In this document: positions 5,157 to 53,561 of the stretch, in pieces
How the letters are laid out: every line of letters begins with the position of its first letter
Position numbering within the stretch: position 1 is the first letter of the stretch
Virus record (IMG/VR): IMGVR_UViG_3300045120_000279
Span: 1-59,289 of that record
Direction: 5' to 3' (one strand)
Source: a virus
DNA length: 59,289 nucleotides
Position numbers and translations under genes: made by a program
The notes under the pieces: generated by a model
Databases searched by the model: none
What the model saw: the letters and a program-made list of their open reading frames with translations, nothing else
Told to the model about the DNA's origin: nothing

Positions 5157-5157
5157 G

Positions 5158-14034: not shown

Positions 14035-14037
14035 TTT

Positions 14038-14175
14038 ATGCCAAAAGCCTACATTAAAATGCGTGACGCCATGAAGAAAGAGTATGGCGCCAAACGTGGA
14101 ACTGTGATCGCCGCCAAGACCTGGAACAAAGCCCACAAGGGCACAGGTCAGACGGTGGGTCGTGGCCGCCGCTAG
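14038..14175 (+). CDS. Small basic protein, 45 aa
   Basis: ATG at 14038, three bases after the giant gene. The 45-residue product contains KMRDAMKKEYGAKRGTVIAA and ends GTGQTVGRGRR. It is strongly basic with a helix followed by a Gly/Arg tail, which suits nucleic-acid binding or packaging with DNA. Its stop codon TAG (14173-14175) overlaps, on the other strand, the stop of the convergent gene that ends at 14172. No family recognised. Confidence 0.55.
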   Translation: MPKAYIKMRDAMKKEYGAKRGTVIAAKTWNKAHKGTGQTVGRGRR

Positions 14176-14372
14176 AGCCGGGGCATTGTATCGCCACCCA
14201 GTTCCGACAGCAGACGGCAGGCATCCTTGTGGGACGCCTGCGTCAGCTGCCAGAGGGTGAGCGCCGTGCCGCGTGTGACCGTCTCCTTTGCCATGGCCTC
14301 CATGAAGGCGCATGACTTTTTCTGGGAGGCAATGATCTCCTGGAACAGGCGCTGTCGTTCAGGTGCGGTCAT
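14172..14372 (-). CDS. Hypothetical protein, 66 aa
   Basis: Helical 66-residue protein (ERQRLFQEIIASQKKS ... TLWQLTQASHKDACRLL). It is the last gene of the long minus-strand run. It starts directly at the end of the preceding gene, and its stop overlaps that of the plus-strand 45-aa gene. I see no motif and propose no function. Confidence 0.5.
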   Translation of the reverse strand: MTAPERQRLFQEIIASQKKSCAFMEAMAKETVTRGTALTLWQLTQASHKDACRLLSELGGDTMPRL

Positions 14373-14552
14373 TCAATTCTCCTGATGCAACGCCAGCGAG
14401 CGGGGCTCCGCTGGGTTGGTGATCTCAATGATGTCATAGGCCCCGTTCTTCATCATGTTCAGCGCCTCTTCCGGGCTGAGCGGATGCTCCAACGTCAGGT
14501 GATTCCACAGCTTGAGCCGGGAGTCCACCGTGAGGTAGTGGTATTTTTTCAT
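14373..14552 (-). CDS. Hypothetical protein, 59 aa
   Basis: The chosen start is the ATG at 14552, which overlaps the upstream RusA-like gene stop as ATGA. A longer frame to 14639 would add a His-rich stretch lying inside that gene. Product begins MKKYHYLTVDSRLKLWNHL and contains PLSPEEALNMMKNGAYDIIEI. It is small, soluble and mixed alpha/beta, of unknown role. Coupling to the RusA-like gene suggests co-expression in replication or recombination. Confidence 0.5.
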   Translation of the reverse strand: MKKYHYLTVDSRLKLWNHLTLEHPLSPEEALNMMKNGAYDIIEITNPAEPRSLALHQEN

Positions 14553-14941
14553 GCGGTGGTGATGATGGTTATTTCCGTGCGCTCCTCTTTTTCCGTGTGA
14601 ACCTTTTCGGAGCAGACCCGTCCAGTGAGCACACACCATTTGTCGTCTGGGATGACCTCAGCTTGGACAAGTAGGTCCTGTATTGCCTTGATGTCGTATC
14701 CGTCATAATCGCAGGGGCGCGTGGAGTAGACGACAAATGTGATCTCAAAGCGTTTTGCAGTGCCATACCAGCACGGCGCTTCTCCCTCACCAATACCGAC
14801 CAGTGGACCCCTTTGAGTTGGTTGCGGGTGCACGGCACATACCCCGGCAGAACCAGGGTGAACTTTGGTCTCGTCTTCATGTTTTACTTGGTCTTCGATT
14901 CGTTTTCTGAGTTTGGGGTCGAGGGTGGATAACTTGATCAC
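14549..14941 (-). CDS. RusA-like Holliday junction resolvase, reading frame interrupted
   Basis: The frame opens at a GTG (14941) overlapping the primase stop as GTGA, with a plausible N-terminus (MIKLSTLDPKLRKRIEDQ). The C-terminal half resembles RusA: EITFVVYSTRPCDYDGYDI followed by an LLVQAEVIPDDKW-type segment, with the acidic residues that bind metal. The expected RusA N-terminal strand (FTLVLPGYVPCTRNQLKGVH) lies in another frame, from about 14880 to 14750. A full resolvase therefore needs a shift into that frame and a -1 shift back near an AAAA run at about 14758. This could be two sequencing errors, compensating mutations, or recoding. Resolvases of this type cut recombination junctions before packaging. 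Confidence 0.55.
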   Translation of the reverse strand: MIKLSTLDPKLRKRIEDQVKHEDETKVHPGSAGVCAVHPQPTQRGPLVGIGEGEAPCWYGTAKRFEITFVVYSTRPCDYDGYDIKAIQDLLVQAEVIPDDKWCVLTGRVCSEKVHTEKEERTEITIITTA

Positions 14942-15771
14942 GGCTTCCTCCAGATCAGTTGACTGGTCATGCTGTCGAAGTGTTGCTTGGTCCCACCCTT
15001 CTGCACGAACCCGCGCAGGTCCTTGGTGGGCAGGGTAAGGATGCAGCTCGGAATTCCGAGGTGCTCCGAAAGGCCGATGGCGCCTTGAATTCCCGGGTTG
15101 ACCACATGGCCGTTGACCTCCCGGTCGTTGTCCACGTCGGCCACGATGACCGCGCGACGCACGTGAGTATTCTTGATGTAATCCTGGAGCATGAAGATGC
15201 CCCCAGAGCAGTTGAACCGGCCAATGGGCAGCAGCCCGATGGATAGGCCGGCCGCACAGTCAGTCGGCCCCTCCACGATGACGATCTCCGACTTCTCGGG
15301 GATGCCACCCGGAATGAACAGGCCGTTGTGGCCTCCGGGATTGCACCACTTCTTGCCGTCCATGGCCCGCATACGGATGCCAATGAGGTGGCCCTTGCCG
15401 TCACGCATTGGGAAGCCCAGCACGTCGGCCCGGTGAGCCCGCACGCAGCCCAGCAACTGCAACGAGTCAGCCCTGACTCCGATTTGAGCGGCGGCGTGTT
15501 CCAGGTGCTGGAATGTGGTTCCAGACAGCCAGCGGTTGTAAATTTCCGAGCTGTTAAAAAGTGGCTCAGGTTTTTTACGCGCGGGCCGTGTGGGGATTTG
15601 ATAGCTGCCGTTCTTGGCGTGCAGGTAGCCGACGGTGCCGTCGGTGAATACTTTCTGGCGAGAGCTGGTAACCCGCATGCAGATGTCAATGTCGATGCCG
15701 CTGAGGCACCAGGTGTCCTTGCTGCATACCTTGCAGGGATGGGCCCGTCCCACCCGGGTGAACTTACTCAC
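14938..15771 (-). CDS. Primase-like Zn-finger/TOPRIM protein
   Basis: 277 residues from the GTG at 15771, which overlaps the upstream gene by eight bases. The N-terminus has a zinc-binding CKVCSKDTWC cluster, followed by about 100 residues matching the linker of DnaG-type primases. A TOPRIM core follows: VIVEGPTDCAAGLSIG supplies the conserved Glu, and VIVADVDND supplies the DxD motif. It probably primes lagging-strand synthesis, working with the helicase and SSB-like proteins encoded just upstream. The frame crosses a 14-bp core of the dispersed palindrome, read as LGIPS. No helicase domain is fused. Confidence 0.75.
   Translation of the reverse strand: MSKFTRVGRAHPCKVCSKDTWCLSGIDIDICMRVTSSRQKVFTDGTVGYLHAKNGSYQIPTRPARKKPEPLFNSSEIYNRWLSGTTFQHLEHAAAQIGVRADSLQLLGCVRAHRADVLGFPMRDGKGHLIGIRMRAMDGKKWCNPGGHNGLFIPGGIPEKSEIVIVEGPTDCAAGLSIGLLPIGRFNCSGGIFMLQDYIKNTHVRRAVIVADVDNDREVNGHVVNPGIQGAIGLSEHLGIPSCILTLPTKDLRGFVQKGGTKQHFDSMTSQLIWRKP
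15047..15060. repeat. Dispersed palindrome core, 14 bp
   Basis: CTCGGAATTCCGAG within the primase-like gene, read as LGIPS on the minus strand. Confidence 0.85.
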
Positions 15772-16051
15772 TCTTGGCCTCCTCCGGTGGTTGTAGGTTG
15801 AGCTGGAGCGTGCGCATCTCCGCCAAGATTTCCTTGAGGGTGGCCAGACGCCCTTCGCGCCAAGCCACCTCACGAGTGAGAATCTTAATGTCCTCCCGCA
15901 GACCCGATATGCGGTTGCCCTCCATGGTGTCACGCAGGCGGGTGCACAACAGGTCCTTGTTGACGATCTCCTGATTGGTCTGGACGATCTCGTTGAGGTA
16001 GCGGTCGATCAGCTCCACCACCTCCGCCTCGTCCTTGTAGAATCGCTTCAT
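15764..16051 (-). CDS. Coiled-coil protein, 95 aa
   Basis: 95 residues, highly charged, with long amphipathic helices (VVELIDRYLNEIVQTNQEIV; REDIKILTREVAWREGRLAT). It overlaps the ligase-like gene as ATGA upstream and the primase-like gene by eight bases downstream. Its position inside the replication block suggests an accessory to those enzymes. No family recognised. Confidence 0.6.
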   Translation of the reverse strand: MKRFYKDEAEVVELIDRYLNEIVQTNQEIVNKDLLCTRLRDTMEGNRISGLREDIKILTREVAWREGRLATLKEILAEMRTLQLNLQPPEEAKSE

Positions 16052-16679: not shown

Positions 16680-18317
16680 CTATCGCTTCCATCCGTTGTT
16701 TGCGAGGGAGTTCAGGGCGTTGGAAGCCGCCTCGAAGCTCATGTTTGGGTCGTTGTAGCCGTAGCGTCTGAGAGTGGCAACCTGCTTGATGGTTGCCAGC
16801 TTTTTGTTCATGCGCTCGAACATGGCATTGAGCACCTGACGCGCGTGGGCGTAGGGCATCTGGTCTGGGTTCATGCCGGCCCGCAGGAGGACAGCCTTCT
16901 GCTTGTCGGATAGCTGCTTTCCCTGGTCCCAGCCACGCTCCTTGACGGGCGTGAGTTGGAGCAGGTCGAACGGGTCGATGGTCTTGGTGTTGAACCTGGC
17001 CTTGGCCACCACTCTGGCCTTGCGGGCCTCCTCGGCCAGTCGCCGGGCCTCGATCTCGTCCCTGATCTTCTGCTCCTCGGCGTCCAGGGCGTCCGTGATC
17101 CGCACCGCACCACCAGTCTCCTTGGCCTTGGCAATGGCCATCTCTACCGCCCGGTCACTGACCTTACCGCCCAGAATGTCGGCTGCGCTGATCAGTTTGT
17201 GCCTTCCAGAGTTCCCCACGAAGTCCACAATGAGGCAGGAGGGCTTGCCTGAGGCCGCTATGGCCGCTAGGCGGCCTTCTGGAGTCGGGATGCCATCAAC
17301 CAGTCCAGGAAGGGTCCTGGTCGCTCTACCGGCCATCTGAGCGTAGAGGGAACGGCTTTTGGTGGGCCTGGCCATGATGATAACCTCCACCCCAGGGTCG
17401 TCGAACCCCTCGGTCAGGACGCCGCAGTTCACAATGACCTGCACCTCTCCCCGCTGGAACGCAGCCAGCATGTCCCGCCGCTCGTCCTTGTTGGTCTTGC
17501 CGCATACCCAGTTGGCCATGCCCTGCCGGTGGCGGTTGAAGATGTTGCACAGCATCTCGGCCTGGGCCACGCCAGCGGTGAACACAATGGCCCGCCGCTT
17601 GCCCACAATGTCGATGGTGGCCGACGCCACGCCTTGTAGCTTGTCCTCGGCTTCCATGACCTTGGCCAGGTCGGCCTGGTTCAGATCACCAGCCGTGGTG
17701 CGCATGTCTCCGAAGTCCAGACCAGCAATGCTGACAAACTGCTGGTCAATGGGCACTAGCCAGCCGCCGTGAATGAGGTCCAGGATTTCAATGTCCATGG
17801 CCACCGTCTCGAATATCTGGCCAAGCGCCTCCTCGTCCGTGCGGTCGGGTGTGGCGGTGACGCCCAGAATCTTGATCTCGGGATTCCGAGCCTTGTAGTA
17901 GGCCATCACCCGTCGGTAGCTGTCGGCCGTGCTGTGATGGCACTCGTCGAAGATAAGGACTCCAAAGTCCTTGGGGTCGAACTGCCGCATGCGCTCGCCG
18001 GAGTTCTGGGTCTGCACCGTGGAGACAATGACCGGCATTTCACCGAGCAGGTCAGCCTCGGATCGGAAGTCGCCCATCTCCACGCCGCACTCCAGCCCGG
18101 TGACAGACTTGATCTTGTTACGCGCCTGCCAGATCAACTCCTCCCGGTGTGCTATGACCATGGCCCGTCTGGGCTGCATTGATTGAATGACCATGGCGAA
18201 CACCATGGTCTTGCCACCGCCGGTTGGAAGAACTGCAACCGTTGATGTTACACTTTTCCACTCCTCGATGATGTTGTCGTGCGTTTCGGTCTGGTAATCC
18301 CTGGGTTGGAATTTCAT
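16680..18317 (-). CDS. SF2 DEAD/DEAH helicase (UvsW/RadD-like)
   Basis: 545 residues. Walker A PTGGGKT at 31-37, motif II DECHH at 124-128, motif III-like VTATP at about 153, and motif VI MAGRATR in the second RecA lobe. Motif order and spacing match SF2 helicases of the type I restriction R-subunit/RadD/UvsW group. A helical C-terminal extension of about 150 residues follows. Such enzymes remodel branched DNA or drive fork restart. It overlaps the ParB-like gene upstream by four bases. Confidence 0.85.
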   Translation of the reverse strand: MKFQPRDYQTETHDNIIEEWKSVTSTVAVLPTGGGKTMVFAMVIQSMQPRRAMVIAHREELIWQARNKIKSVTGLECGVEMGDFRSEADLLGEMPVIVSTVQTQNSGERMRQFDPKDFGVLIFDECHHSTADSYRRVMAYYKARNPEIKILGVTATPDRTDEEALGQIFETVAMDIEILDLIHGGWLVPIDQQFVSIAGLDFGDMRTTAGDLNQADLAKVMEAEDKLQGVASATIDIVGKRRAIVFTAGVAQAEMLCNIFNRHRQGMANWVCGKTNKDERRDMLAAFQRGEVQVIVNCGVLTEGFDDPGVEVIIMARPTKSRSLYAQMAGRATRTLPGLVDGIPTPEGRLAAIAASGKPSCLIVDFVGNSGRHKLISAADILGGKVSDRAVEMAIAKAKETGGAVRITDALDAEEQKIRDEIEARRLAEEARKARVVAKARFNTKTIDPFDLLQLTPVKERGWDQGKQLSDKQKAVLLRAGMNPDQMPYAHARQVLNAMFERMNKKLATIKQVATLRRYGYNDPNMSFEAASNALNSLANNGWKR

Positions 18318-19237
18318 TTCGCCTCCCTCATTTGCTTACTCTCCTTGGGAGCGCACGTGTCGTAACGGAACTTGCTGATCAGCCCCTTGCCGAAACAAAA
18401 ACGGCATCCGTTGGACTGGGTCTCCGGATGGCCGGCGCACACTGTGCAAACCGCATACGGAATGGCCAGCCGCATGTTGTGCCATGCCTTTTCCAGGTCG
18501 GCGAGCAGACCCGAGAAGTTGATCTCGGCATACAGAATGTCCTTGGCCTGCTGATGACCTTTGAACGCATTGATGATGGCACTCAGCTGCTTGGTCTCAC
18601 TGATGATCTCACCCTGTCGCTCCCAGAACTTCTGCACCTTCTTGGGGATGGGATAACCGAGAGCATCCTTGACGACCACCTCGGCTGGTGGTGCGGCTTT
18701 GACCTTGGGTTTTGGAGCTACCTCGGAATTCCGAGGTGCGGCGGCGGCGCGCTGTTTGCCGTCGGACGCCGTGCGGGTGACGGTCTTCACGACCTCCTTC
18801 TTTGCCTCCAGCTCCTTGCGGTATTTGGCGACCGTCTTGTCGTCCACGTCCGTCAGTTTGGCGAGCTGGACGTTGCTGAGTGTCGGCCACTCCTTCACGG
18901 CAGCCATGATGCACTGCACCTTGTCGTCCGGGCTGCGCGGTAGTCCGTGAACCGTATTGGCGAGCAGCGCGTATTGCAGGCAGTCGGTGTAGGTGCCCGT
19001 CTTCACCTCTGCCTCGATGGACTTGCGTCCGATCATGCGGGTGGCCTCGCAGCGGTGAGCACCGTCGCCCAGATACATGCGGCTCTCTTTGCTGTCCCAG
19101 AACAGAACGATGGGTGGCATCTTTTTCTTGGTCTGGTAAGCCTCGGCGTATTGAAGAACCGTATCCTTCTCAATGGTGTAGCGAACCTTCGGGCTCGCCT
19201 TGAAGTCGATGTCACTCAGGAAGATTTGTTTGGTCAT
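18314..19237 (-). CDS. ParB/Sulfiredoxin-like domain protein with C-terminal Zn cluster
   Basis: 307 residues from the ATG at 19237; the frame is open a little further upstream. Residues about 1-100 carry the ParB-N signature (PPIVLFWDSKES then YLGDGAHRCEATRMIG), which in this family binds CTP or acts as a nuclease. A helix-turn-helix-like stretch follows (LSNVQLAKLTDVDDKTVAKY). A Pro/Lys/Ala linker contains one copy of the dispersed palindrome read as APRNSEV. The C-terminus has CTVCAGHPETQSNGCRFCFG, a four-Cys zinc motif. Probably a DNA-binding replication or segregation factor. Confidence 0.65.
   Translation of the reverse strand: MTKQIFLSDIDFKASPKVRYTIEKDTVLQYAEAYQTKKKMPPIVLFWDSKESRMYLGDGAHRCEATRMIGRKSIEAEVKTGTYTDCLQYALLANTVHGLPRSPDDKVQCIMAAVKEWPTLSNVQLAKLTDVDDKTVAKYRKELEAKKEVVKTVTRTASDGKQRAAAAPRNSEVAPKPKVKAAPPAEVVVKDALGYPIPKKVQKFWERQGEIISETKQLSAIINAFKGHQQAKDILYAEINFSGLLADLEKAWHNMRLAIPYAVCTVCAGHPETQSNGCRFCFGKGLISKFRYDTCAPKESKQMREAK
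18720..18737. repeat. Dispersed palindrome, 18-bp in-gene copy
   Basis: Within the ParB-like gene linker, read (A)PRNSEV on the minus strand; 18 bases are perfectly symmetric. Confidence 0.9.
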
Positions 19238-19358
19238 GGGGTTGGGTTTTGTGGGTTGTGAGTTCGTGACACCCACCCACGATCAGCATGATCAGGCCGA
19301 GTATCACTATGGTTGAGGCCACGAAATTGGCCGGGTCAATTTTTGGATCAGACTTCAT
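19212..19358 (-). CDS. Small membrane protein, 48 aa
   Basis: ATG at 19358 overlaps the upstream stop as ATGA. The 48-residue product has one hydrophobic helix (STIVILGLIMLIVGGC) after a short polar N-terminus, then a His/Thr-rich tail. The Cys after LIVGG could be a lipidation site, but the position is unusual for a lipobox. It overlaps the start of the ParB-like gene by 26 bases. Could be a small membrane effector; function unknown. Confidence 0.55.
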   Translation of the reverse strand: MKSDPKIDPANFVASTIVILGLIMLIVGGCHELTTHKTQPHDQTNLPE

Positions 19359-19561
19359 GATGGGTTTCTCTCCAGTTCAGCCAGTAAGGCGTCGGCATAG
19401 TTGACCGCACACTCGGCCACCGATTGTTTAGACACTGGGATTTCTCCGTTGGCCACCATGGCCTCCATCATCATGGCCGCAAACAGCTCGCGCTTGGTGA
19501 GGCCGACAGCCCATCGCTCAGACGGGTAGGCTGCTAAATCTCCATTTTCTTTCGGACTCAT
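19355..19561 (-). CDS. Hypothetical protein, 68 aa
   Basis: 68 residues, mostly helical (TKRELFAAMMMEAMVANGEI; SVAECAVNYADALLAELERN). This is the common small phage family in which an ELFA-type N-terminal helix precedes an A-x-x-YADALL helix. It overlaps both neighbours by four bases. Function unknown; its place between nuclease and ParB-like genes suggests co-expression with recombination functions. Confidence 0.6.
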   Translation of the reverse strand: MSPKENGDLAAYPSERWAVGLTKRELFAAMMMEAMVANGEIPVSKQSVAECAVNYADALLAELERNPS

Positions 19562-20652
19562 TTCACCACCTCCAGCGACCCGTCTTTGCGCTTGTCGTCG
19601 GTGATGCCGGCCAGCAGTTCATCCATCTTGGCCTTGAGCGCCTTGCCCTTGAGTTTGGTGGCTGCGCGCACCTGCGCCTCCAGCTCGCCCTTGGCAATGG
19701 TGACGGTCGCCATGAATTGAGCGGTCGTGCCGCCCGACGCCACGAACCGCGCGTGCAGCTCGTTGGGGTTGTTGACCGTCTTGGTCATGTCGCCCTCGCC
19801 GATCTTCCAGCCGGGCACTGCGTTTGGGTCCTCACGAATGAGGTCCTTGATCTTCTCCTTGCACTCGGACAGCCAACGCTCGGCCAGACCACGCCGCTCA
19901 CAGAACAGCGCGCGCTGCTCGGGCGTCCACAGGCTGACCGGGATGGCCAGAGTGGACATGGACGCCGGCACAGACACGTCCACCAGCTTGGAGTATTCGG
20001 GACAGGTGAACCGGGCCAGGCAGTATTTGCACTGCACTTCGCCAGCGGTGCGCGGTGCACCCGGTGCGTTCGACTTGAACACTCGATTAACCATCTCCGA
20101 CTGCGCCTGCTCGATGGAGATCAGGTCATACCGGCAGATGCCCGCGTCGTGCGTCACCAGCGGCTGCACGATGGACACGTCGATCTCCGTCACGCCATAG
20201 CTGCCAGCCGCCAGCGCACACTGGTCGCGCAGTTGCAGATTGCTCGGCGAGTCCTGCACTTCCCCGGGCAGCGTTTTGTATTCGATGATCAACGCCTTGG
20301 TGCCGTGAGTGACTACCAGGTCCGGCTTGGCGCTGTGGATGTGGCCTTCCTGTGACCTGAACCAGAGGCGCTCCTCCTTGATGCGTTTGACGTTCTCGGC
20401 GTCGGGGCCGAACGAGTCGATGATCAGACGCTCCCGCATTTCAACGCAGCTCTCATACACCGAGAGCTGGTCGCTGCGCAGGCCCTCCGGCGCGTCCTTG
20501 GCCAGGGCGTCGTGGATTTGCTGACCGAACAAGTTGTCGTCGGTCGTGGGCGAGGTCAGACCGCGCTGGGCCTGGTGTCGGCCCTGACAGAGTTCATCTG
20601 CCTGGGCATTGGAGGCGGACGTGCCGCCCATCACTTCTTCTTCGTGGGTCAT
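19558..20652 (-). CDS. PD-(D/E)XK nuclease (Cas4/RecB-like, DUF2800 type)
   Basis: 364 residues. The central part has the PD-(D/E)XK core: KPDLVV followed by ALIIEYKTLPG (D...E-x-K). A downstream cluster CKYCLARFTCPEY matches the zinc/iron-sulfur cysteines of Cas4/RecB-like exonucleases. The C-terminal 140 residues are helical and charged. Phages often pair such an exonuclease with a RecT/Bet annealase, as here (RecT-like gene at 21386). Expected role: 5' end resection for single-strand annealing recombination. Confidence 0.75.
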   Translation of the reverse strand: MTHEEEVMGGTSASNAQADELCQGRHQAQRGLTSPTTDDNLFGQQIHDALAKDAPEGLRSDQLSVYESCVEMRERLIIDSFGPDAENVKRIKEERLWFRSQEGHIHSAKPDLVVTHGTKALIIEYKTLPGEVQDSPSNLQLRDQCALAAGSYGVTEIDVSIVQPLVTHDAGICRYDLISIEQAQSEMVNRVFKSNAPGAPRTAGEVQCKYCLARFTCPEYSKLVDVSVPASMSTLAIPVSLWTPEQRALFCERRGLAERWLSECKEKIKDLIREDPNAVPGWKIGEGDMTKTVNNPNELHARFVASGGTTAQFMATVTIAKGELEAQVRAATKLKGKALKAKMDELLAGITDDKRKDGSLEVVK

Positions 20653-21165: not shown

Positions 21166-21389
21166 TCGTTTTCCTCCAGCGCCCGCTTGGCGATGAAGTG
21201 TGAGTGGGTGCGGTTGCCCCGGTAGTCCTCGTCCCGGATTTGCTCCAGCGAACGACGCAGGGATCGGATGATGCGAACGTAGTTGGCTATCTCCTTTTCG
21301 TAGTCATATCCGGATTGGATTTGGTTGGGTCTGACAGCTGGGTCCACGTAGCCATCTGACTTGTGTGGGTATTCACCTGAGCAGCTCAT
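21162..21389 (-). CDS. Hypothetical protein, 75 aa
   Basis: 75 residues, polar, with a helical centre (EIANYVRIIRSLRRSLEQIR) and a His-containing end (GNRTHSHFIAKRALEE). Overlaps the RecT-like gene and the next gene by four bases each. No motif that I can name. Confidence 0.55.
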   Translation of the reverse strand: MSCSGEYPHKSDGYVDPAVRPNQIQSGYDYEKEIANYVRIIRSLRRSLEQIRDEDYRGNRTHSHFIAKRALEENE

Positions 21390-22324
21390 ACCTCACTCTC
21401 CTTCTTGAGGTCGGCCACCACGTCGTCCCACCGCTTGACGATCTCCGCCATAGTCTTGGGGAACTTGGTGTTCGTGCGCTCGATGCTGTCGCCCATGTCG
21501 GCCAAACCCAGTCCAGCCATGTAGTTGATCAGGGTGGACTCGGTGATGTCTTCCCGCAGGCAGAGCAGCCGGATTTTCTCCGTGTTCTCGTCGCTGGTCT
21601 CGGTCACGATCTCGGCGTCCGAGGGCAGTGGCGGTTCTACCTCGGAATTCCGAGGTAGGTCTGGGACGGGCTCATTCCCGAAGATGGGCTTCGAGATCGC
21701 CTTGCGCTCCGTGTGCGCTGTGTCCATCTCCTCCTTGAGGTAGAAGCCACCCAACATGGTCGGGAAGGCCGTCCGCATGGCGTCGGCCTCGGCACACTTG
21801 CAGATCATCCCCGCCGGGTCGTCCGTCCAGATTTTTGTGTTCTTCTTGAACCGGGAGAGCCGGACCTTTTTGTAGATGGGGATGGACCTGTTTTTGAAAT
21901 AGACGGCGGCCCAGCCACCCAGCAGCCGGTCGGTGTCTCGGGTATAGTCGCCCTCGACTTCAATCTCCGCGCCGTCCCGAATGACCACCACTCCGGACTT
22001 CATGCCGTCGAAGTCCGGGTTGACCTGGGCGCGCTTGAGGAACGCCTGGTGCGCGGTGATCAGTGAGAACTTGGGACCGTCCTGCGTGTCGTAGCCTAGC
22101 ATGAAGGCGTCGCCCTCGAACGGGTTGAGCCGGCGTGCCTGCGCCATCATCAGGAATTTCATGCACTCGTTGTCGCTGGGCAGCGCGCCGCTCTTGGTTG
22201 GTTGCGCGACCAGGTTCTTAACGATGCTGATGCTGAGTTTGATGGAGTCTTTCCCGCCGAACGGGACGAACTCCATCATCTTGGTTTCTTTTGTGGTGCT
22301 TACTGCGTTTGTGGGTTCACTCAT
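21386..22324 (-). CDS. RecT/Bet-family single-strand annealing protein
   Basis: 312 residues. Residues about 20-210 match the Bet/RecT core: KFLMMAQARRLNPFEGDAFM (the RKLNPF-like signature), then SLITAHQAFLKRA, GGWAAVYFKN, and the conserved CKCAEADAMRTAFP near the end of the core. A Pro/Glu linker contains a 22-bp copy of the dispersed palindrome, read as LPRNSEV. A helical C-terminal tail follows. It anneals ssDNA exposed by the nuclease encoded at 19558 and is first in the recombination operon, just after a strong hairpin at 22346-22396. Confidence 0.85.
   Translation of the reverse strand: MSEPTNAVSTTKETKMMEFVPFGGKDSIKLSISIVKNLVAQPTKSGALPSDNECMKFLMMAQARRLNPFEGDAFMLGYDTQDGPKFSLITAHQAFLKRAQVNPDFDGMKSGVVVIRDGAEIEVEGDYTRDTDRLLGGWAAVYFKNRSIPIYKKVRLSRFKKNTKIWTDDPAGMICKCAEADAMRTAFPTMLGGFYLKEEMDTAHTERKAISKPIFGNEPVPDLPRNSEVEPPLPSDAEIVTETSDENTEKIRLLCLREDITESTLINYMAGLGLADMGDSIERTNTKFPKTMAEIVKRWDDVVADLKKESEV
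21637..21658. repeat. Dispersed palindrome, 22-bp copy in RecT-like gene
   Basis: Full 22-bp copy read LPRNSEV in the linker between the annealase core and its C-terminal tail. Confidence 0.95.
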
Positions 22325-22410: not shown

Positions 22411-23739
22411 TTAACCTCCCAACCCGTGCCCTTGACCGTATCCCGGATACCTGACCTCACCGTTGGGAATGGGATGGCCCTCGTAGTCCATCCGCTCCTC
22501 CTCGTCCGTCTCGGTGGGCAGACCAACCTCACTGGGCGCACCACCGGCTTTCTCCTGCTTCAGCGCCCGCTTCAGCTCCCGGTTGAGTTCTTGCTGGTGA
22601 ATCTTGGCGACCATGTCCGAGTAGGCCGACACACTCATGTCGTGTTTGAACATGAGGTCCATCATGACCAGCTCCTCGTCCTCCAGCGTCATCAGCATCT
22701 CGGCTATTTTGATGAACATATCCGACGTGAAGGCCAGGAGCTTGGGATCGTTTTTGGGAGTGCCCCTCGACTCCTTGATCAGTTCCTTTATGTCGGCCTC
22801 ACAGCGGTCCTTGTCCCACTTGGTGACGGTGACGCATCGGTCCAGGTAAGTGCGCTGGGCCACAACGTATCCACTCGAAAAGTGGCCCATTGGCTGGACG
22901 GTCGGCCGAGGTGGTGCGTCGATGATGTAGTTCTCCTTCCACACTTCGGGGAAGGTTGTCTCTGGTGCTGGTGGCGTGCACATCTCGAAGGCCGCCAACC
23001 GGGCGTCCACGTCATCTGGCATCATGGACCGCATGTGCTCGGGGATGGTGGCCTTGACAGCCGTCACATCCCAGAATGTGTCCAGCTTGATGGACGACAG
23101 GTGGAAGCGGGACTGGTAGACGCGGGCATGAATGTCGTAGTGATTGCTGCCCACCTTACCAATGGTGATGTGAATGCCGTCCTGTCCGACCTCGTTGGCC
23201 GTGTCGGTGCTGGACTGGAACGCACTGCCTGAGCAGTGGTGATGGATGGTGCAGTAATACAGCCACTCGTCACCGAACTGCGCGCGCTGGATGGCCGTCT
23301 GTGGGTGCTCGTCCAGCTCCCGCGTGGTCATGCCCGTGCGACCGCGCTGCGGGAACGCCCACGCCTTCCACTCCCGAGTGGTGGCGTTGACGTAGACGCG
23401 CACCTGCGCCTCGCTGTGGTGCTCCGCCTGCGTCCACTCGAAGAACGCCATGACCTCGTCCCACCACTGGCGGTTGGGCACGTTCATCTTGGGACCCTCC
23501 CACTCATACTTGGCGGTCGTCTCGGTTACCGTGTGCTCGAATATGCAGGTCATCAGACCGGTGGCCTGCTTCACTTGTTTGATTTTGCTCATTGTATTTG
23601 TGTTACTGGTTTGACTGACTGGGGTTTCAATTTTCCGTTCGACGAGTGGCAGTTGCTGCGGGTAGGTCTGGGGAACTTGCCCCATGCCTCGTGCCCCGCC
23701 GTCACTCACCAATGATTTGCGATGCTTCTTCCGGCCCAT
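22411..23739 (-). CDS. JAB/MPN-domain protein (deubiquitinase-like), PRTRC A-like
   Basis: 442 residues; the ATG at 23739 has AGGA eight bases upstream and overlaps the preceding gene. Residues 160-190 carry a JAMM-type zinc motif: YYCTIHHHCSG (H166-x-H168) then SSTD (Asp179), with E108/E110 upstream as the candidate catalytic Glu. The following GIHITIGKV and YDIHARVY strands fit the MPN fold. The 200-residue C-terminal half is helical and charged. JAB peptidases remove or mature ubiquitin-like proteins, and here the gene closes an operon that also encodes Ubl, E2-like and E1-like proteins. Confidence 0.6.
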   Translation of the reverse strand: MGRKKHRKSLVSDGGARGMGQVPQTYPQQLPLVERKIETPVSQTSNTNTMSKIKQVKQATGLMTCIFEHTVTETTAKYEWEGPKMNVPNRQWWDEVMAFFEWTQAEHHSEAQVRVYVNATTREWKAWAFPQRGRTGMTTRELDEHPQTAIQRAQFGDEWLYYCTIHHHCSGSAFQSSTDTANEVGQDGIHITIGKVGSNHYDIHARVYQSRFHLSSIKLDTFWDVTAVKATIPEHMRSMMPDDVDARLAAFEMCTPPAPETTFPEVWKENYIIDAPPRPTVQPMGHFSSGYVVAQRTYLDRCVTVTKWDKDRCEADIKELIKESRGTPKNDPKLLAFTSDMFIKIAEMLMTLEDEELVMMDLMFKHDMSVSAYSDMVAKIHQQELNRELKRALKQEKAGGAPSEVGLPTETDEEERMDYEGHPIPNGEVRYPGYGQGHGLGG

Positions 23740-25024
23740 AGTTATTCCTGATGTAGGTTGTTAATTGACGTTTCAGTTCTTCCTGATTTATTTGGACAGT
23801 CGGGTCCTCGTTGTTTTCCGAATCGTGGTTCCCATACGTGTGCTCCCCAACCTGCTGCATCTCCACGTTGCCGAGGGCGTTGTCGTCCACGATGTCATTG
23901 ACATAATTCATCATGGCTTCGAGGGTGTCGTGATTGGTCACGATACTAGACACCTCGTTGCGTGAGAAGTGATGGCTGTATACCCCACGCCGGTTGACGC
24001 GGTAGGTGCATGTGCCCACATCCACGTCCGTCACCGTCACCGGTATGGCGAATATGTTTGGGTTGGCAGCTTGGGCCCGCTCGGCTGCCGTAGCGGCCGG
24101 CCCGCGCACCACGTTTCCATCCCGACCGTAGACTCGGGCTTGTGCTCCCGAGAAGCGTGGCGGATGGAACCCGAACTCCACCCAGTCCTTCAGCTGATCG
24201 AACGTGATCAACTCCTCAGGCGGCAGCCGCCCAAAGATGGCCATGAGATGACCACGCACGATCTCGTTCTGCGGGGCCACCTTCATGAGCTGCACCAACG
24301 TGGCGTTGATGCACACCTCCAACTGCATCTTGCGCTGTGGTGGTTCATTGGCCAGCACTCCCGCATCCAGCAGTGCGAATGACCAGGAATCGCTCACGTT
24401 GCCAGCCGTGCGGTCGGCGATGATCTCATGTCCCGTCCACAGCTTGGCTCGGACGATCTGGTTCGTGGTGTTGTTGTGCGCATCCAGGTAATAATCCTGG
24501 TTGTGGTTCAGGTTGACCACGCCCGTGCGATCCCGGATACCCGACCGACGGGAGTCCAGAAACTGGCGCATGGTCATGAGGTCAGTTACCACTCGGAATT
24601 CCGAGTTGGTCAACTTGAACGCCGGTTTTTCTTCCTTGGCTTTTTTGGCTTTCATGGCTTCTTCATTGTTGTCCGGGTCGCCCGGCATTATTGGTGTTCC
24701 GTCCAGTCGAACGCCGACCGCTTTGGCCGGAATCGGTGGACCGTCGGGTGTCTCGGAGGGTAGTGTGCCCCACGTAGAGGGCACTGGCGGTTCCCACATA
24801 GAGAGCACTGGCGGTTCCCACACCAAGTTCCCTGGCGGGTGTATCTCCTGCTCCACTGGCGTGACTGTCAGTGGCTGTATCACCACCGCGTCGTAAGGAC
24901 CCGTTGGATCGCTTTCTGGGACTGTTTGTTGTGCCCGTAGTAGTGCAGCCTCGAATTCGTCGAGCTGCTGATTGATTTCCATGGCCTGCCGCTCGGTGGC
25001 GCCTGGCTCGTGTTGTTCTGGCAT
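23702..25024 (-). CDS. Uncharacterised 440-aa protein of the ubiquitin-like cassette
   Basis: 440 residues. The first 120 are Pro-rich with a near-repeat (WEPPVLSMWEPPVPSTW). Then comes a Lys/Ala hinge and a soluble alpha/beta body from about residue 130. I see no cysteine arrangement, Walker motif or protease motif. The gene lies between E1-like and JAB genes, overlapping the JAB gene by 38 bases, so it is probably a substrate, scaffold or specificity factor for the conjugation system. It includes a 16-bp version of the dispersed palindrome (24591-24606) read in a different frame, as NSEFR. Confidence 0.55.
   Translation of the reverse strand: MPEQHEPGATERQAMEINQQLDEFEAALLRAQQTVPESDPTGPYDAVVIQPLTVTPVEQEIHPPGNLVWEPPVLSMWEPPVPSTWGTLPSETPDGPPIPAKAVGVRLDGTPIMPGDPDNNEEAMKAKKAKEEKPAFKLTNSEFRVVTDLMTMRQFLDSRRSGIRDRTGVVNLNHNQDYYLDAHNNTTNQIVRAKLWTGHEIIADRTAGNVSDSWSFALLDAGVLANEPPQRKMQLEVCINATLVQLMKVAPQNEIVRGHLMAIFGRLPPEELITFDQLKDWVEFGFHPPRFSGAQARVYGRDGNVVRGPAATAAERAQAANPNIFAIPVTVTDVDVGTCTYRVNRRGVYSHHFSRNEVSSIVTNHDTLEAMMNYVNDIVDDNALGNVEMQQVGEHTYGNHDSENNEDPTVQINQEELKRQLTTYIRNNYGPEEASQIIGE
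24591..24606. repeat. Dispersed palindrome, 16-bp variant
   Basis: ACTCGGAATTCCGAGT in the 440-aa cassette gene; read NSEFR in another frame than the LPRNSEV copies. Confidence 0.85.
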
Positions 25025-25032
25025 AATTTTCC

Positions 25033-25692
25033 TTAGAGTTCACCGGTTTTGAACGTCTCCTGACGTGTTAGATTTTGAACCAATTTGTGCGGGAGGAATT
25101 TCTCGTCCTCCTGCGTGAGTTTGATGGCCTCCATTCCCCACACGACGTAGAGATGGGCAGCCAGGGCGGCGGCCATGAAGTTGGCCGTGACAAGCTGCAC
25201 GTTGGCGGTCTGCGCCTCACCCGTGCAACCGATGGACCGGGCGCGCGGGTCGTTGCGCCGGTCGTTGAGCATTTCCGGATACATGACCCGAGGGTCAAGC
25301 CGGGTGGTTTTCCAGTAAGGCAGGTAGACGTAAGCCTCGCTGGAATGAACCTCGTTGGCCGCAAAGATCACGCGGCAGTCGGTCATGTCGGAAGCCCGCA
25401 GCGCGGCTATGCGCCCAGGGTTGTTATCCACCACGCACATCAGCCAGTCCTGTGCGGAGTGCGCAATCAGCGTCTCCGAATACCAGGTCGGGATGTGGTG
25501 GCAGTTGTATTTCTCGGCCAGGGCGAACGCCTTGTTCTGGCCGATTTCTTTTTCTGTGAACAGCTGACGGTTGAGGTTTTTCTTCTCCAACTTGTCGCCA
25601 TCCACCAGCGTGACGTTGTCCTTGCCTGCGAGCAGGCACATGGTCGGGGCCAGCCAACTGCCGACGCCGCCAACTCCAATGATGTAGATCAT
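25033..25692 (-). CDS. E1-like ThiF/MoeB-family adenylyltransferase
   Basis: 219 residues from the ATG at 25692, preceded by an ideal AAGGAGGT at eight bases. Rossmann nucleotide loop GVGGVG at 6-11, acidic end of strand 2 LVDGDKLEKKNLNRQLF (D31, D33, N39, R42), K54 in GQNKA, and D89 in VVDNN. These are the ATP/Mg residues of E1/ThiF/MoeB enzymes. C156 in SIGCTGEAQ is the candidate thioester cysteine. Role: adenylates the C-terminus of the Ubl encoded upstream and passes it to the E2-like protein. Confidence 0.85.
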   Translation of the reverse strand: MIYIIGVGGVGSWLAPTMCLLAGKDNVTLVDGDKLEKKNLNRQLFTEKEIGQNKAFALAEKYNCHHIPTWYSETLIAHSAQDWLMCVVDNNPGRIAALRASDMTDCRVIFAANEVHSSEAYVYLPYWKTTRLDPRVMYPEMLNDRRNDPRARSIGCTGEAQTANVQLVTANFMAAALAAHLYVVWGMEAIKLTQEDEKFLPHKLVQNLTRQETFKTGEL

Positions 25693-25696
25693 ACAA

Positions 25697-26125
25697 TTAA
25701 CCTCCTTGTTCGTCGTCTTCGTGCTCCTCGTCCTGATCATCCTCCTCGTCAGTGCCGAGTGGGCTTTGCTTCACGTCCATCGAGAAGACCAGGTCCACCA
25801 GCTTTTTGTTGACGGGATTGCGTTGCATCTTGGCTTGCAGGTTGGCCTTGGCGATCTCCAGTGTTTTCCAGAAAGCCTTTCGGTCTTTGGTGGGCACCAG
25901 CAAATCGAACAGTGCGTTGTCATACGCCATCCACGACGCCAGGATGTAATCCGGAATGCGATAGCCACGCCCCATGCTGTAGTCACCCAGCGTTGGGCGG
26001 GTTGAATCCGTGTTTAGGAACGTGAGGAACAGCTCAAAGCTTTCAAGTGGCGCACCATTTTTGGTGTGGCCAAAGTGGATAGCCTGGAACAGCTCCGGTC
26101 TCTTGTTGGGTTTTTTATTGCTCAT
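25697..26125 (-). CDS. Hypothetical protein with acidic C-tail, 142 aa
   Basis: 142 residues. The body is alpha-helical (DYILASWMAYDNALFDLLV). The C-terminal 20 residues are nearly all Asp/Glu (EEDDQDEEHEDDEQGG) and end in Gly-Gly. The GG end is worth noting in a ubiquitin-like operon, though the fold does not look like beta-grasp. It sits between the E2-like and E1-like genes, four bases from the E1 start. Function unknown. Confidence 0.55.
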   Translation of the reverse strand: MSNKKPNKRPELFQAIHFGHTKNGAPLESFELFLTFLNTDSTRPTLGDYSMGRGYRIPDYILASWMAYDNALFDLLVPTKDRKAFWKTLEIAKANLQAKMQRNPVNKKLVDLVFSMDVKQSPLGTDEEDDQDEEHEDDEQGG

Positions 26126-26126
26126 T

Positions 26127-26855
26127 TTAAGGGCGGATGTTTTGGGTGATGAAGTCCACTCCTATTTTCTTACAGCTGGCCTCCCAGTCACCGACCGGCG
26201 GCTGCTGAATGAATCCTTTGTCCTTGGCGATGAACCGGAACAGATTGCGCGTGGCCTTCCGTATCGAGTCGCCTTGGCTGGTATACAGGTCCTTCTGCCA
26301 GATGCTGCGCTGGAACTGCTGCCACACTCGCTGCGCACCATGAATCATGCTGGCGTTGACCTGACTGTCCGAGTTAGTCCCGGGACACAGCTTGCAATCC
26401 TCGTAGAGGTTGCTGAGGGGGAGGCGCCAGCACCTACCCTGCGGATCGAAGGCGGTGAGGAACTGACAGGTCTCCTGGTTCGCATCCCCGAGCACCACTG
26501 ACAAGATGACGCGCATGGTCGTGGGTGGCACCCAGATCATGGGCATGGTGGGTCCTTCCGAGTCGAAGGCAGGATACAATACTTCACCGTCCAACAGGTA
26601 GACGGTCGTGAGGGGAATGCTGTTTAGCGGCATGTTGACCACCCGATTGCCGGGTGCCAGGGTGATGTTGGCCATGCCGGGCAGACCAGCAACGCCGGTG
26701 AGGTGAGCCATGCTGATGGCATTGGTGGCGACCCGGGGCACGTTCTTGCTCATGGCCGTCATGAACTGATCAGTCAGCTCCACGGCGCGCACGACTTGCT
26801 CCACTTGATGCAGGCCGCCTCCTGAGTCGATTGTGTAAAAAGTTTCAGATTTCAT
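26127..26855 (-). CDS. E2-like (ubiquitin-conjugating fold) protein, PRTRC B-like
   Basis: 242 residues. A beta-rich N-terminal half with VPPTTMRVILSVV is followed by LPLSNLYEDCKLCPGTN (about 145-161). That matches the E2 active-site region, in which a P-N-x-Y strand leads to a catalytic Cys followed by a small residue; C157 (or C154) is the candidate. A helical C-terminal third follows. It follows the Ubl gene and precedes E1-like and JAB genes. Assignment rests on the motif and operon context and needs structural comparison. Confidence 0.5.
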   Translation of the reverse strand: MKSETFYTIDSGGGLHQVEQVVRAVELTDQFMTAMSKNVPRVATNAISMAHLTGVAGLPGMANITLAPGNRVVNMPLNSIPLTTVYLLDGEVLYPAFDSEGPTMPMIWVPPTTMRVILSVVLGDANQETCQFLTAFDPQGRCWRLPLSNLYEDCKLCPGTNSDSQVNASMIHGAQRVWQQFQRSIWQKDLYTSQGDSIRKATRNLFRFIAKDKGFIQQPPVGDWEASCKKIGVDFITQNIRP

Positions 26856-26866
26856 TTTTAAGACAA

Positions 26867-26904
26867 TAAAAAGGGGCCGGCCAGGATTGCTCCCAGCCGG
26901 CCCC
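26867..26904 (-). terminator. Rho-independent terminator after the Ubl gene
   Basis: On the minus strand the arms GGGGCCGGC and GCCGGCCCC (nine perfect pairs) enclose a 14-base loop and run straight into TTTTT. It lies 15 bases after the Ubl stop and 12 bases before the E2-like start. It should let most transcripts end after the Ubl and coiled-coil genes, giving Ubl in excess over the enzymes. Confidence 0.8.
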
Positions 26905-26918
26905 GTGTTGACTACCGT

Positions 26919-27182
26919 TTAGCTCTTACGGAAGAGCCCCTTGATGAACTGCACGAACCGTGCAGCCTTCGTGTTGGCCTTGGTCTCGATGAGCACCGTC
27001 ACGCCGTCCGTGAGGACCGACGAGTTGCCCTGCTCCACGCCGTTGACGAGCGCGCGGACATTGTCACCGAAGCCCAGCTGGGCCTTGACCGACGCCGAGC
27101 CCAGCACGGTGCTGACCGTGGGCGGGTTGTCGTAGGTCTTGGTGATTTCTTCGGAACCGTATTTGACTTTGATGATCGTCAT
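26919..27182 (-). CDS. Ubiquitin-like (beta-grasp) protein
   Basis: 87 residues. A predicted beta-grasp order: strands TIIKVKYGS and EITKTYDN, a helix around VSTVLGSASVKAQLG, then NVRALVNGVEQG and GVTVLIETKA. The ALVNG(V)...TDGVTVLIET segment is typical of bacterial Ubl and MoaD-like proteins in E1-associated operons. A 15-residue tail (KAARFVQFIKGLFRKS) follows the fold with no terminal Gly-Gly, so JAB trimming or a different conjugation end would be needed. A strong terminator follows the gene. Confidence 0.65.
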   Translation of the reverse strand: MTIIKVKYGSEEITKTYDNPPTVSTVLGSASVKAQLGFGDNVRALVNGVEQGNSSVLTDGVTVLIETKANTKAARFVQFIKGLFRKS

Positions 27183-27220
27183 ACTTTTATTTGGTTACTG
27201 AGTTTGCGTTTGGTTGTGGT

Positions 27221-27652
27221 TTAGCCCAGGACCTGTTCAGCGGTGACCACGTCGGCCACCAGTGCGCTGACCTCCTCCCGCAGCTTGCTGATGCGTTCAT
27301 TGCAGCCCTTGATGGCGGCGTTGAGCCCGTCGATCTCGCTGAGGTGGCACTTGGACTTTTCTTCCACGTTCTTGGTCGTGGCGTCATTGCGATCCTTGAT
27401 CGCCTTGAGCACCGCAACCTCGAACTGGTTCGGCGTGACCGAGGCCGGGCGGCCGAGCACCTGGTCAGCAGTGAGGATGTCACCGACGATCTTGGCGACC
27501 TTCTCCTGATGCACCCGGATGGCTTCCTGGTAGTCCTTGATCTTGGCCTGCTCAGCCAGGATGTAGGTGATCTTGGCGCTGGCCTTGTCCACCACGACCG
27601 CCTGTTTGTCCTTGTTCAGCTGAGCCAAGGCATTCTGTGTTACTTCGTTCAT
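27221..27652 (-). CDS. Coiled-coil protein with duplicated motif, 143 aa
   Basis: 143 residues from the ATG at 27652, with GGGGGA upstream. The protein is helical with heptads throughout. A short motif is duplicated: VGDILTADQVLG near the middle and VADVVTAEQVLG at the very C-terminus, each closing a 65-residue helical half. It is the first gene of the ubiquitin-like cassette, behind a 150-base structured leader. It may be a target or partner of the Ubl; no family recognised. Confidence 0.6.
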   Translation of the reverse strand: MNEVTQNALAQLNKDKQAVVVDKASAKITYILAEQAKIKDYQEAIRVHQEKVAKIVGDILTADQVLGRPASVTPNQFEVAVLKAIKDRNDATTKNVEEKSKCHLSEIDGLNAAIKGCNERISKLREEVSALVADVVTAEQVLG

Positions 27653-29404: not shown

Positions 29405-29992
29405 TCAAGGACTGTCCTTGAGTGTGTATTGGTAGTGGCCTTCCACGAGTTCCGTGGTAATGACATGACCGTATCTACGCAAGTTGCGGCAGATGGCATT
29501 CATTTTGACCGTTGGATTGTCCGACTCCCGAATGGCCGCTCGCAATTCCGAGGTCTTGACAGCCTTCCCCTTGTGCTCAACCAGGACTTTGAGCACGAGA
29601 GCATTGATGGGATTTAGTTTCAGTTTCTCTCTCACCAGATTCGCCACCTTTTTAATGCTCCAATCACTGCGCCCGCGTATGATTTTTTTCAGGCGTCCTT
29701 GGGAGGTGTGAGTCCACACCCAGGCATTCAGGCCATCGACCGCCCCTCGGCGGATCAGTGTGGCAGTGTCCAGGTCTGGAATGTCCTCCACCGATTTCTC
29801 GCGTTTCTTGGCGTCGTTTTCCCGGCGGATGATGTTGATGGAGGCCAGCAGTTCGGGCCTTACTTTTTGGTAAAGCAGCTCCAGCAATTCCTCACGGGTG
29901 TATTCGTCTCGCTGCTCGAAGGCGGCCAGCAGGACCTGACTAACTACCGAAGATGACTCGCATCTTTTCCGTGATCCGCTTGAAACGATCAT
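29405..29992 (-). CDS. Winged-helix-like protein coupled to ParB-like gene, 195 aa
   Basis: 195 residues; the only in-frame ATG, at 29992, overlaps the ParB-like gene by 53 bases. N-terminal two thirds helical and charged. The C-terminal 75 residues look like a winged helix (NALVLKVLVEHKGKAVKTSE ... MNAICRNLRRYGHVITTE ... YQYTL). Coupling to a ParB-like gene suggests a DNA-binding partner in segregation, replication or regulation. Confidence 0.55.
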   Translation of the reverse strand: MIVSSGSRKRCESSSVVSQVLLAAFEQRDEYTREELLELLYQKVRPELLASINIIRRENDAKKREKSVEDIPDLDTATLIRRGAVDGLNAWVWTHTSQGRLKKIIRGRSDWSIKKVANLVREKLKLNPINALVLKVLVEHKGKAVKTSELRAAIRESDNPTVKMNAICRNLRRYGHVITTELVEGHYQYTLKDSP

Positions 29993-30893
29993 AGATTTCC
30001 TTTTTATCCGATGGTTCAGTGATCTGCATCTGTTTGGCAGAGCTGCGCCCGGTCAGCAACCGCTCCAGGCCCGTAATGTATTGCAGCAGGTTCCTGCGCA
30101 CCGGACGCACCACCGTTCCTTTTTGTGGCCGGTCCTCAACCTTGAGCGAGTGCTCGTAGGCGGCCAGCACGGCAATCTGTGCGGACTCCGTGGTGGAGTT
30201 GCGAACTTCCCGCAGTATTTCCACCACCGTGTCGCCATTGGTGTTGTGCTGGGCGAATACGGACCCCGCCGCGCGCATGACGTTCTCGTTCTTCAACCCG
30301 GCCAGGGCAGCCAGGATGCCCTTGGGCATCTTGGTCACATTGACCCGAGCCTCGGTCATGAGCTTGCGAGCGTGGGCAATGGCCATCTGCCGGGACAGTG
30401 TGCCCTTTGGTAGTGAGAACATGGCCTCGGCCGCTTCACGGCCGACCGAATAGGCGCGCATGGCATAGAGCGCGTGTTCGACCAGCTCGTCCTTCTTGAT
30501 GCCCTTGCCGTGCTGGTTGTTCAACATGCGTGGCAACAGGTCACTGACCATCTCGTCCTCGATCTGCACCTGGTAAACCCTGATCTTCTCTTGTTGATCA
30601 ATGATTTCAGCATAGCCGGCCAGCCGGTGATTGCCGCTGATGGGCACCAGTCGCCACTTGCCATCTCTTTTCTGGCGGTTGAGCACGACCATGGGGAATG
30701 TGTCACCCCGCTCCATCGCCAGCGCGTAGTTCATGACTGTTTCCTGATCCAGCGCCTGCGAAATGCGGGCGTGGTTTTTAAGACCGGACTCCCGGTCAAT
30801 GTCGCCAAAGGGCACCTCGATCACGTCGAAGTCGATCTTTTGGCGGTGCAGTATGGCCTCAACCACACTGTCTCTATTGGTTATTACTTTCAT
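29940..30893 (-). CDS. ParB-like partition/nuclease domain protein
   Basis: 317 residues from the ATG at 30893. The longer open frame runs through a palindrome and hairpin, so the inner start is preferred. Contains the ParB-N core (IEVPFGDIDRESGLKNH; PMVVLNRQKRDGKW; VPISGNHRLAGYAEII) with the GxxR motif of CTP-binding ParB proteins. A helix-turn-helix-like region follows (REAAEAMFSLPKGTLSRQMA), and the C-terminus is basic and helical. A Walker ParA partner is not found. It may bind the dispersed palindrome; that is my inference. Confidence 0.7.
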   Translation of the reverse strand: MKVITNRDSVVEAILHRQKIDFDVIEVPFGDIDRESGLKNHARISQALDQETVMNYALAMERGDTFPMVVLNRQKRDGKWRLVPISGNHRLAGYAEIIDQQEKIRVYQVQIEDEMVSDLLPRMLNNQHGKGIKKDELVEHALYAMRAYSVGREAAEAMFSLPKGTLSRQMAIAHARKLMTEARVNVTKMPKGILAALAGLKNENVMRAAGSVFAQHNTNGDTVVEILREVRNSTTESAQIAVLAAYEHSLKVEDRPQKGTVVRPVRRNLLQYITGLERLLTGRSSAKQMQITEPSDKKEIYDRFKRITEKMRVIFGS

Positions 30894-30915
30894 TTTGGGT
30901 CTTTCTTGGGTTACT

Positions 30916-30936
30916 CCCCGGTCTTCATGACCGGGG
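30916..30936. promoter_or_regulatory. Hairpin upstream of ParB-like gene
   Basis: Arms CCCCGGTC and GACCGGGG with a 5-base loop, between the ParB-like start and the 22-bp palindrome at 30947. Together they make a double stem-loop leader. Confidence 0.55.
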
Positions 30937-30946
30937 AAATTAAGTT

Positions 30947-30968
30947 CTACCTCGGAATTCCGAGGTAG
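30947..30968. repeat. Dispersed palindrome, 22-bp copy upstream of ParB-like gene
   Basis: Arms CTACCTCGG and CCGAGGTAG around AATT, 54 bases upstream of the ParB-like start codon and 12 bases after the stop of the 81-aa gene. Placement between genes on the minus strand suits an operator or an RNA hairpin. Confidence 0.95.
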
Positions 30969-30979
30969 GATTTGGGAGG

Positions 30980-31225
30980 TCACGTTCGCCGGTCGGCGGC
31001 TTCAATGATTTTGTTGATCTCGGCAGCGGTCAGTCGTCTGGTGCAGTCGTGATCCTTGTTGGTGAGACAGATGATACTCGGTCCAGCGCCACTGTTTTCT
31101 TCCAGTGGTCCGACCCTTCCTGTGTCCGGGTTGATGCGGCAGTATTCCGGGTTGCCGTCGTATTGCACGATCAGGTTGTCGGAGCAGATGGCGCACGTGA
31201 ACTTCGGCTTGGGCTTGTTGTGCAT
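30980..31225 (-). CDS. Cys-containing small protein, 81 aa
   Basis: 81 residues with TCAICSDNLIVQY near the N-terminus, and Cys at EYCRIN, IICLTN and DCTRR, enough for one zinc site. The C-terminal helix is RLTAAEINKIIEAADRR. Unknown small phage zinc protein. Confidence 0.55.
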   Translation of the reverse strand: MHNKPKPKFTCAICSDNLIVQYDGNPEYCRINPDTGRVGPLEENSGAGPSIICLTNKDHDCTRRLTAAEINKIIEAADRRT

Positions 31226-51811: not shown

Positions 51812-51824
51812 GAATTCATTGTTT

Positions 51825-53486: not shown

Positions 53487-53512
53487 GCAGTTTGGTGTGG
53501 GTTACTGGGTTC

Positions 53513-53546: not shown

Positions 53547-53561
53547 CCGGAGAACAAACGT

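Follow-up and report, generated by a model that had tools for sequence, protein, structure and literature searches.

Do some bacterial viruses run a ubiquitin-like signalling system of their own, and if so, which proteins does it mark? The question is raised by a cassette of genes on the minus strand (27652 to 22411) of the IMG/VR phage record IMGVR_UViG_3300045120_000279, the whole 59,289 bases of which are called the window here. The cassette encodes, in order, a coiled-coil protein (143 residues), a ubiquitin-like modifier (Ubl, 87 residues), an E2-like protein (242), a protein called X (142), an E1-like protein (219), a protein called F (440) and a JAB/JAMM metallopeptidase (442), and the genes are tightly packed. 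The original prediction, read from the letters of this DNA, had placed seven consecutive genes here and compared them with the PRTRC (ParB-related, ThiF-related) cassettes of plasmids; all seven open reading frames (ORFs) are present on the minus strand. Judging from the genes, we consider that the cassette probably encodes a reversible Ubl-conjugation system, the likeliest targets of which would be the phage's own recombination, replication or DNA-organising proteins.

Relatives were found by scanning viral contigs with the E1 and with E1 and JAB profiles, which gave 11 further uncultured phage records of 41-113 kb, and their ORFs were searched for the cassette families by iterated hidden Markov model (HMM) searches. 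The results showed that Ubl, E2, E1 and JAB are each present in 12 of the 12 records and in constant order (counts of 12 include the window, and two records, L013 and L015, are near-duplicates). F is recognisable in 11 of the 12 and the coiled-coil protein in five, and a weakly similar ORF stands at the position of X in all of them. Identity to the window among the 11 relatives is 38-60% for E1 and 16-38% for E2. A constant order of Ubl, E2, X, E1 and JAB across 12 divergent phages is far beyond what chance would give. Eight records, the window counted, share a terminase (49-79% identity to that of the window) and an 809-residue protein (54-62%), and no match to either was found in G001, G008, G009 and G010, indicating that the cassette crosses phage lineages. 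A direct DNA-pattern search of the viral contigs with E2 had no hit, and tblastn with E2 matched no phage record. In a bacterial genome collection the cassette genes occurred on only four short contigs (4-8 kb) of metagenome-assembled genomes (MAGs), which look like phage fragments.

As single sequences, only the E1-like protein (25033..25692) gave a confident family call among the cassette proteins (Pfam ThiF, 3.6e-16, above the cut-off), and sub-threshold matches in the window were those of E2 to Prok-E2_D (0.004) and of JAB to PRTRC_A (0.003). With the PRTRC cassettes of nine plasmids as the reference, six phage families were compared with six PRTRC families by profile-profile comparison (hhalign). 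Three pairs were significant and no others, namely E1 with PRTRC_ThiF (1.6e-20), E2 with PRTRC_B (4.9e-7) and JAB with PRTRC_A (4.7e-7). The E1 profile also matches UBA5, the SUMO E1, the NEDD8 E1, BubCD and Cap2. Residues G6, G8, G9, D31, D33, N39, R42, Q43, K54, D89 and C156 are among those invariant in all 12 phages, and the cysteine of GC(TGEAQ) aligns with the PSCS cysteine of PRTRC ThiF; with its ATP-site residues and transfer cysteine, the protein belongs to the E1-like ThiF superfamily. Its gene most likely begins at the ATG at 25692, which corrects the earlier coordinates, because the E1s of the relatives begin there. The E1 tree groups the phage sequences with the four MAG contigs in one clade (100/97), separate from the PRTRC ThiF clade (97/96).

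The E2-like protein (26127..26855) matches Pfam Prok-E2_D in nine of the 12 phages (best 2.1e-4), with 17.3 bits against a cut-off of 25 in the window, and its homology to this family and to PRTRC_B spans the active-site cysteine. P146, N149, C157, G159, D189 and L190 are among the residues invariant in the 12 phages, and their P-x2-N-x7-C-x-G is aligned with the corresponding element of PRTRC_B. Pfam Prok-JAB is matched by the metallopeptidase (22411..23739) in nine of 12 members (best 6.4e-5). The motif H166-x-H168-x7-S176-x2-D179 and Glu110, the putative catalytic glutamate, are invariant throughout, which places the protein among the JAMM/JAB peptidases. Thus, the full ATP motifs and Cys156 of E1, Cys157 of E2 and the HxH...D motif of JAB with D179, all picked out beforehand from the window's own letters, are real and unchanged in 12 of 12 phages.

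The modifier (26919..27182) gave no sequence match, and searching the sequences of the PDB with the profiles of JAB, Ubl and E2 returned nothing meaningful. The original prediction had staked its identity on the fold, and here it was borne out: the AlphaFold model (pLDDT 82) was matched by Foldseek with probability 1.00 and a TM of about 0.6 to ubiquitin, SAMP1 and the B. fragilis and Caldiarchaeum ubiquitins, so that the predicted structure is that of a beta-grasp protein. The conserved core of the family ends ..VETAANQKA, and residues follow it in several phages, the window included, where the core ends ...ETKANTK and a 15-residue extension follows. The Ubl genes of L013 (4824-5264) and L015 (4542-4982) each encode a head-to-tail fusion of two units, and both units end in VETAANSKA.

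The Ubl-E2 gap is the one sizeable gap common to all cassettes (53-101 nt), most other junctions overlapping or nearly touching. In the window it holds a hairpin followed by TTTTTATT (26873..26904, minus strand), which resembles an intrinsic terminator; the stem has 14 bp with 11 G-C pairs, and the gap folds at -33.5 kcal/mol (z -5.2). Folding showed a strong hairpin in this gap in all 12 phages and in the MAG contig L033 (z -3.8 to -7.8). A strict hairpin scan recovers 10 of the 12 phage gaps, those of the window and of L011 (bulged) being seen by folding. The stem sequences vary among phages, and a T-rich tail follows the hairpin in about 10 of 13 sequences read by eye. Hairpins of this grade are rare in the 12 phage sequences (about 0.4-1.2 per kb), and chance is therefore a poor explanation. 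The conserved hairpin in the Ubl-E2 gap across 12 phages is new here. Its simplest reading is a partial terminator that would let much of the coiled-coil protein and Ubl be made and little of the enzymes, in keeping with a modifier needed in stoichiometric amounts; alternatively, it would stabilise the 3' end of the upstream mRNA, with the same effect on the ratio.

The remaining proteins are less familiar. The most likely start codon of the coiled-coil gene (27221..27652) is the ATG at 27652, which again corrects the earlier coordinates, and homologues of this gene lie directly upstream of Ubl in L005, L007, L009 and L010 (HMM E < 1e-35). Protein X (25697..26125) has the acidic C-terminal tail noticed in the original prediction, and its counterparts in the 12 phages are positional and weakly similar. 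Protein F (23702..25024) has a homologue at the same position in the relatives, and its C-terminal half is conserved. A relationship between X and F is suggestive at most (E about 0.002, probability 14-16%).

To what, then, would the modifier be attached? The cassette sits in the replication and recombination half of the window, and the terminase and putative structural genes lie at 43-58 kb and 1-14 kb. Four genes follow it on the minus strand: a RecT-type single-strand annealing protein (21386..22324; Pfam RecT 3.8e-29), downstream of the cassette in seven phages; a PD-(D/E)XK exonuclease (19558..20652; phrog_69 exonuclease 6.8e-18), kept in seven; a ParB-like protein (18314..19276; phrog_1033 2.9e-9), downstream in eight records; and a superfamily-2 DNA helicase (16680..18317; phrog_16 3.6e-89, ResIII 1.9e-28), kept in eight. 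In L013, an AAA_24 ATPase and a PD-(D/E)XK nuclease lie a few kb beyond the cassette. On an unannotated human-gut phage fragment, MT835919 (L017), JAB, E1 and a DnaN-like sliding clamp stand in a row (13021-15781) and E2 lies beside Rad52-like and SMC-like ATPase genes (5938-9337), and in three of the nine PRTRC plasmids dnaN (two) or ssb (one) is near the cassette. From these surroundings (RecT, exonuclease, ParB-like protein and helicase; DnaN, Rad52, SMC and ssb as neighbours), DNA-metabolism proteins are our best guess for the targets.

A second ParB-like gene at 29940-30983 has a weak match only (0.0035). The original prediction had taken the two ParB-like genes as a link to PRTRC, and this part fell: neither matches the PRTRC ParB model TIGR03734, both lie outside the cassette, and no homologue of the second was found in the related records, so that it was rejected as a component of the system. 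The window also carries a dispersed palindrome (core CTCGGAATTCCGAG, mostly CTACCTCGGAATTCCGAGGTAG), present in 12 exact copies (5276, 9881, 15047, 18722, 21641, 24592, 27809, 30951, 36184, 41634, 51794 and 56178) and four with one mismatch, every 3-10 kb in coding and non-coding DNA, where chance would give 0.01 with one mismatch allowed. It was rejected as a feature of the cassette, being essentially absent from the relatives. The palindrome is a candidate binding site for a DNA-organising protein of the phage, perhaps the ParB-like product of 29940-30983.

Other features of these genomes were seen in passing. The putative structural genes of the window phage mostly lack a PHROG match; at 5134-14034 on the plus strand there is a single ORF of 2966 residues without a Pfam match, and at 40373-41614 on the minus strand a C-methyltransferase of the sugar-modifying type (Methyltransf_13/23/14). 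In G004 (the phage of L009), the terminase homologue lies within one open frame of 1236 residues (50407-54099), where two insertions break the match into three successive blocks, the pattern expected of two inteins. A small ORF of L004 (12931-13200), immediately downstream of the cassette, reads like an acyl carrier protein (..LGADSLDVVEIIMEIEDEF..).

In the conjugation system that we favour, E1 would adenylate the Ubl C-terminus and take Ubl onto Cys156; Ubl would move to Cys157 of E2 and be handed on to lysine residues of its targets, with F, X and the coiled-coil protein possibly helping to choose the targets. JAB would take the tag off again and may, in addition, trim those Ubls that have a C-terminal extension or come as tandem units. 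A bolder version, in which a self-contained signalling system with a glycine-free modifier reversibly marks the phage's own recombination and replication machinery and a conserved transcription attenuator sets the ratio of modifier to enzymes, is a tentative proposal that we hold to be rather doubtful as a whole.

Several points weigh against this scheme. The last residue of the phage Ubls is A, N or S and in none of the 12 phages glycine, so that either the terminal residue is unusual or JAB trims the tail first. The E2 model is confident (pLDDT 86) and has one clear viral match (A0A6J5NI06 of an uncultured Caudovirales phage, E 7e-10), but it matches no PDB fold and hence no solved E2 fold; the claim of an E2-like protein, as first made, therefore stands on its profile homology, and its UBC fold is putative. 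The phage E2s also lack the downstream histidine described for the family: in PRTRC_B this is the conserved THpN histidine, which Iyer et al. 2006 (PMC1779556) counted among the active-site residues, and the phage proteins have W-x-x-D-L there, with the invariant Asp as a candidate replacement. As to the targets, their class is inferred through guilt by association, DnaN was discarded as a partner of the cassette in these phages since none of the 12 records has a DnaN match, and reading of the DNA showed no recognisable recombination module beside the cassette in the L004 and L014 lineages. Finally, conjugation is here a prediction from the genes.

The same cascade could instead act on the host, disabling or redirecting its defence or replication during infection. 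Among bacterial Ubl systems, Bil is one of anti-phage defence. Cap2/Cap3 and Bub belong to anti-phage defence as well, and counter-defence genes are common in phages (PMC10097602), so that a viral counterpart would be plausible. In most records, however, the cassette lies in the conserved recombination module and not in an accessory region, and we regard host targets as unlikely, though worth keeping in mind. The original prediction had proposed tagging of host defence or virion proteins; some likelihood is left to both, but what is conserved around the cassette speaks more for proteins of DNA recombination and replication.

In another reading, E1 would activate a ThiS/MoaD-like carrier for sulfur transfer to a small molecule or tRNA, and JAB would trim the carrier. 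The ThiF type of the E1 fits this, and one phage Ubl weakly matches a ThiS-like ubiquitin (E 0.02). Against it stand an E2-like protein with an invariant cysteine in 12 of 12 phages, a Ubl without the terminal glycine on which a thiocarboxylate is formed, and the examined neighbours, which showed neither a rhodanese nor a cofactor-synthesis gene; we hold sulfur transfer to be very unlikely. It is scarcely probable, too, that proteins of the virion or of morphogenesis carry the Ubl as a tag and lose it to JAB during assembly, as proposed for lambda I/K: there is precedent for a Ubl and JAB in phage tail assembly clusters (PMC1779556), but this cassette is away from the terminase and putative structural genes and also occurs in phages without a recognisable homologue of the window's terminase. 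An anti-phage system of the CBASS/Bil type, carried by the phage for superinfection exclusion, would have the same enzyme classes, but no nucleotidyltransferase or effector was recognised in the cassette and its E2 matches family D, not family C or the metal-binding domain (PMC10952713), so that we consider it the most improbable of all.

Conjugation by the phage's own enzymes, directed at its own DNA-metabolism proteins, thus stays our preferred reading. Some bacterial viruses would then have Ubl signalling of their own, probably in DNA replication or recombination. Ubl conjugation in bacteria is known mainly from host defence, and PRTRC cassettes are widespread among plasmids; with a viral cassette that is compact, strongly conserved and clear in its catalytic residues, the question of what such systems modify becomes tractable. 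It also lets one ask whether Ubl control of DNA replication and recombination exists beyond eukaryotes and archaea. If the reading is true, this would be viral ubiquitin-like regulation of DNA metabolism in bacteria.

Among known systems, those of host defence and the lambda tail Ubl/JAB pair were found in the open-licence literature, where a viral E1-E2-Ubl-JAB cassette was not, an earlier description being possible. The tail proteins I (Ubl) and K (JAB) of lambda and T1 are a phage-encoded pair (PMC1779556) that has no E1 or E2, lies in a tail operon and has a Ubl ending in glycine, and the present cassette differs on each point. With the CBASS Cap2/Cap3, Bub (BubCD) and Bil systems it shares the E1-E2-JAMM logic, but its E1 and E2 are separate (fused in Cap2), its Ubl is its own and it is viral. 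Its E2 is also of another Prok-E2 family: CBASS type II and ISG15-like systems have Prok-E2 family C (PF14459) and the metal-binding PF14455 (PMC10952713), whereas only Prok-E2_D was matched here and PF14455 by none of the window's cassette proteins. MT835919 has relatives of E1, E2 and JAB, but its E2 is about 5 kb from E1/JAB and its E1 falls outside the cassette clade.

The closest likeness is to PRTRC (NCBIfam TIGR03734-TIGR03741), with which the type 6d operons of Iyer et al. 2006 (PMC1779556) seem to be of one kind. The little open-licence literature examined states no function for PRTRC, most papers naming it incidentally or sharing its letters by chance. The phage and PRTRC cassettes have homologous E1, E2 and JAB proteins; in each, the Ubl is a small beta-grasp protein preceded by a further gene, a large protein of unknown function is encoded, and the position is on mobile DNA, close to genes of DNA metabolism. 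The phage cassette differs in its extra gene X, in lacking the PRTRC ParB and in its order (coil-Ubl-E2-X-E1-F-JAB against ParB-E-C-F-B-A-ThiF in the reference L023, similarly in L024-L026 and L029). Its Ubl, coiled-coil protein and F are unrecognisable as PRTRC_C, PRTRC_E and PRTRC_F, no signal being found for these pairs by profile-profile comparison, nor for Ubl and PRTRC_C by HMM. The window E1 scores 36.9 bits with TIGR03736 and JAB 17 bits with TIGR03735 (PRTRC_A), well below the cut-offs of 144.75 and 101.8, and E2 does not hit TIGR03737 (PRTRC_B). Most PRTRC_C cores end GTKG, GAKG or SNG, whereas the phage Ubls have no C-terminal Gly; the PRTRC plasmids have hairpins after the Ubl gene in some cases, mostly without a clear T-rich tail; and the phage E2s have an invariant Asp-Leu for the histidine, and the phage E1s a clade of their own. 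Of the likeness to PRTRC first proposed, a related Ubl/E2/E1/JAB cassette with unusual accessory proteins therefore holds, and the ParB link does not; nor is the cassette PRTRC as defined. By its sequences, the phage cassette would be a sister of the PRTRC and type 6d operons, one that fails several PRTRC-defining features and shares with them the E1, E2 and JAB core.

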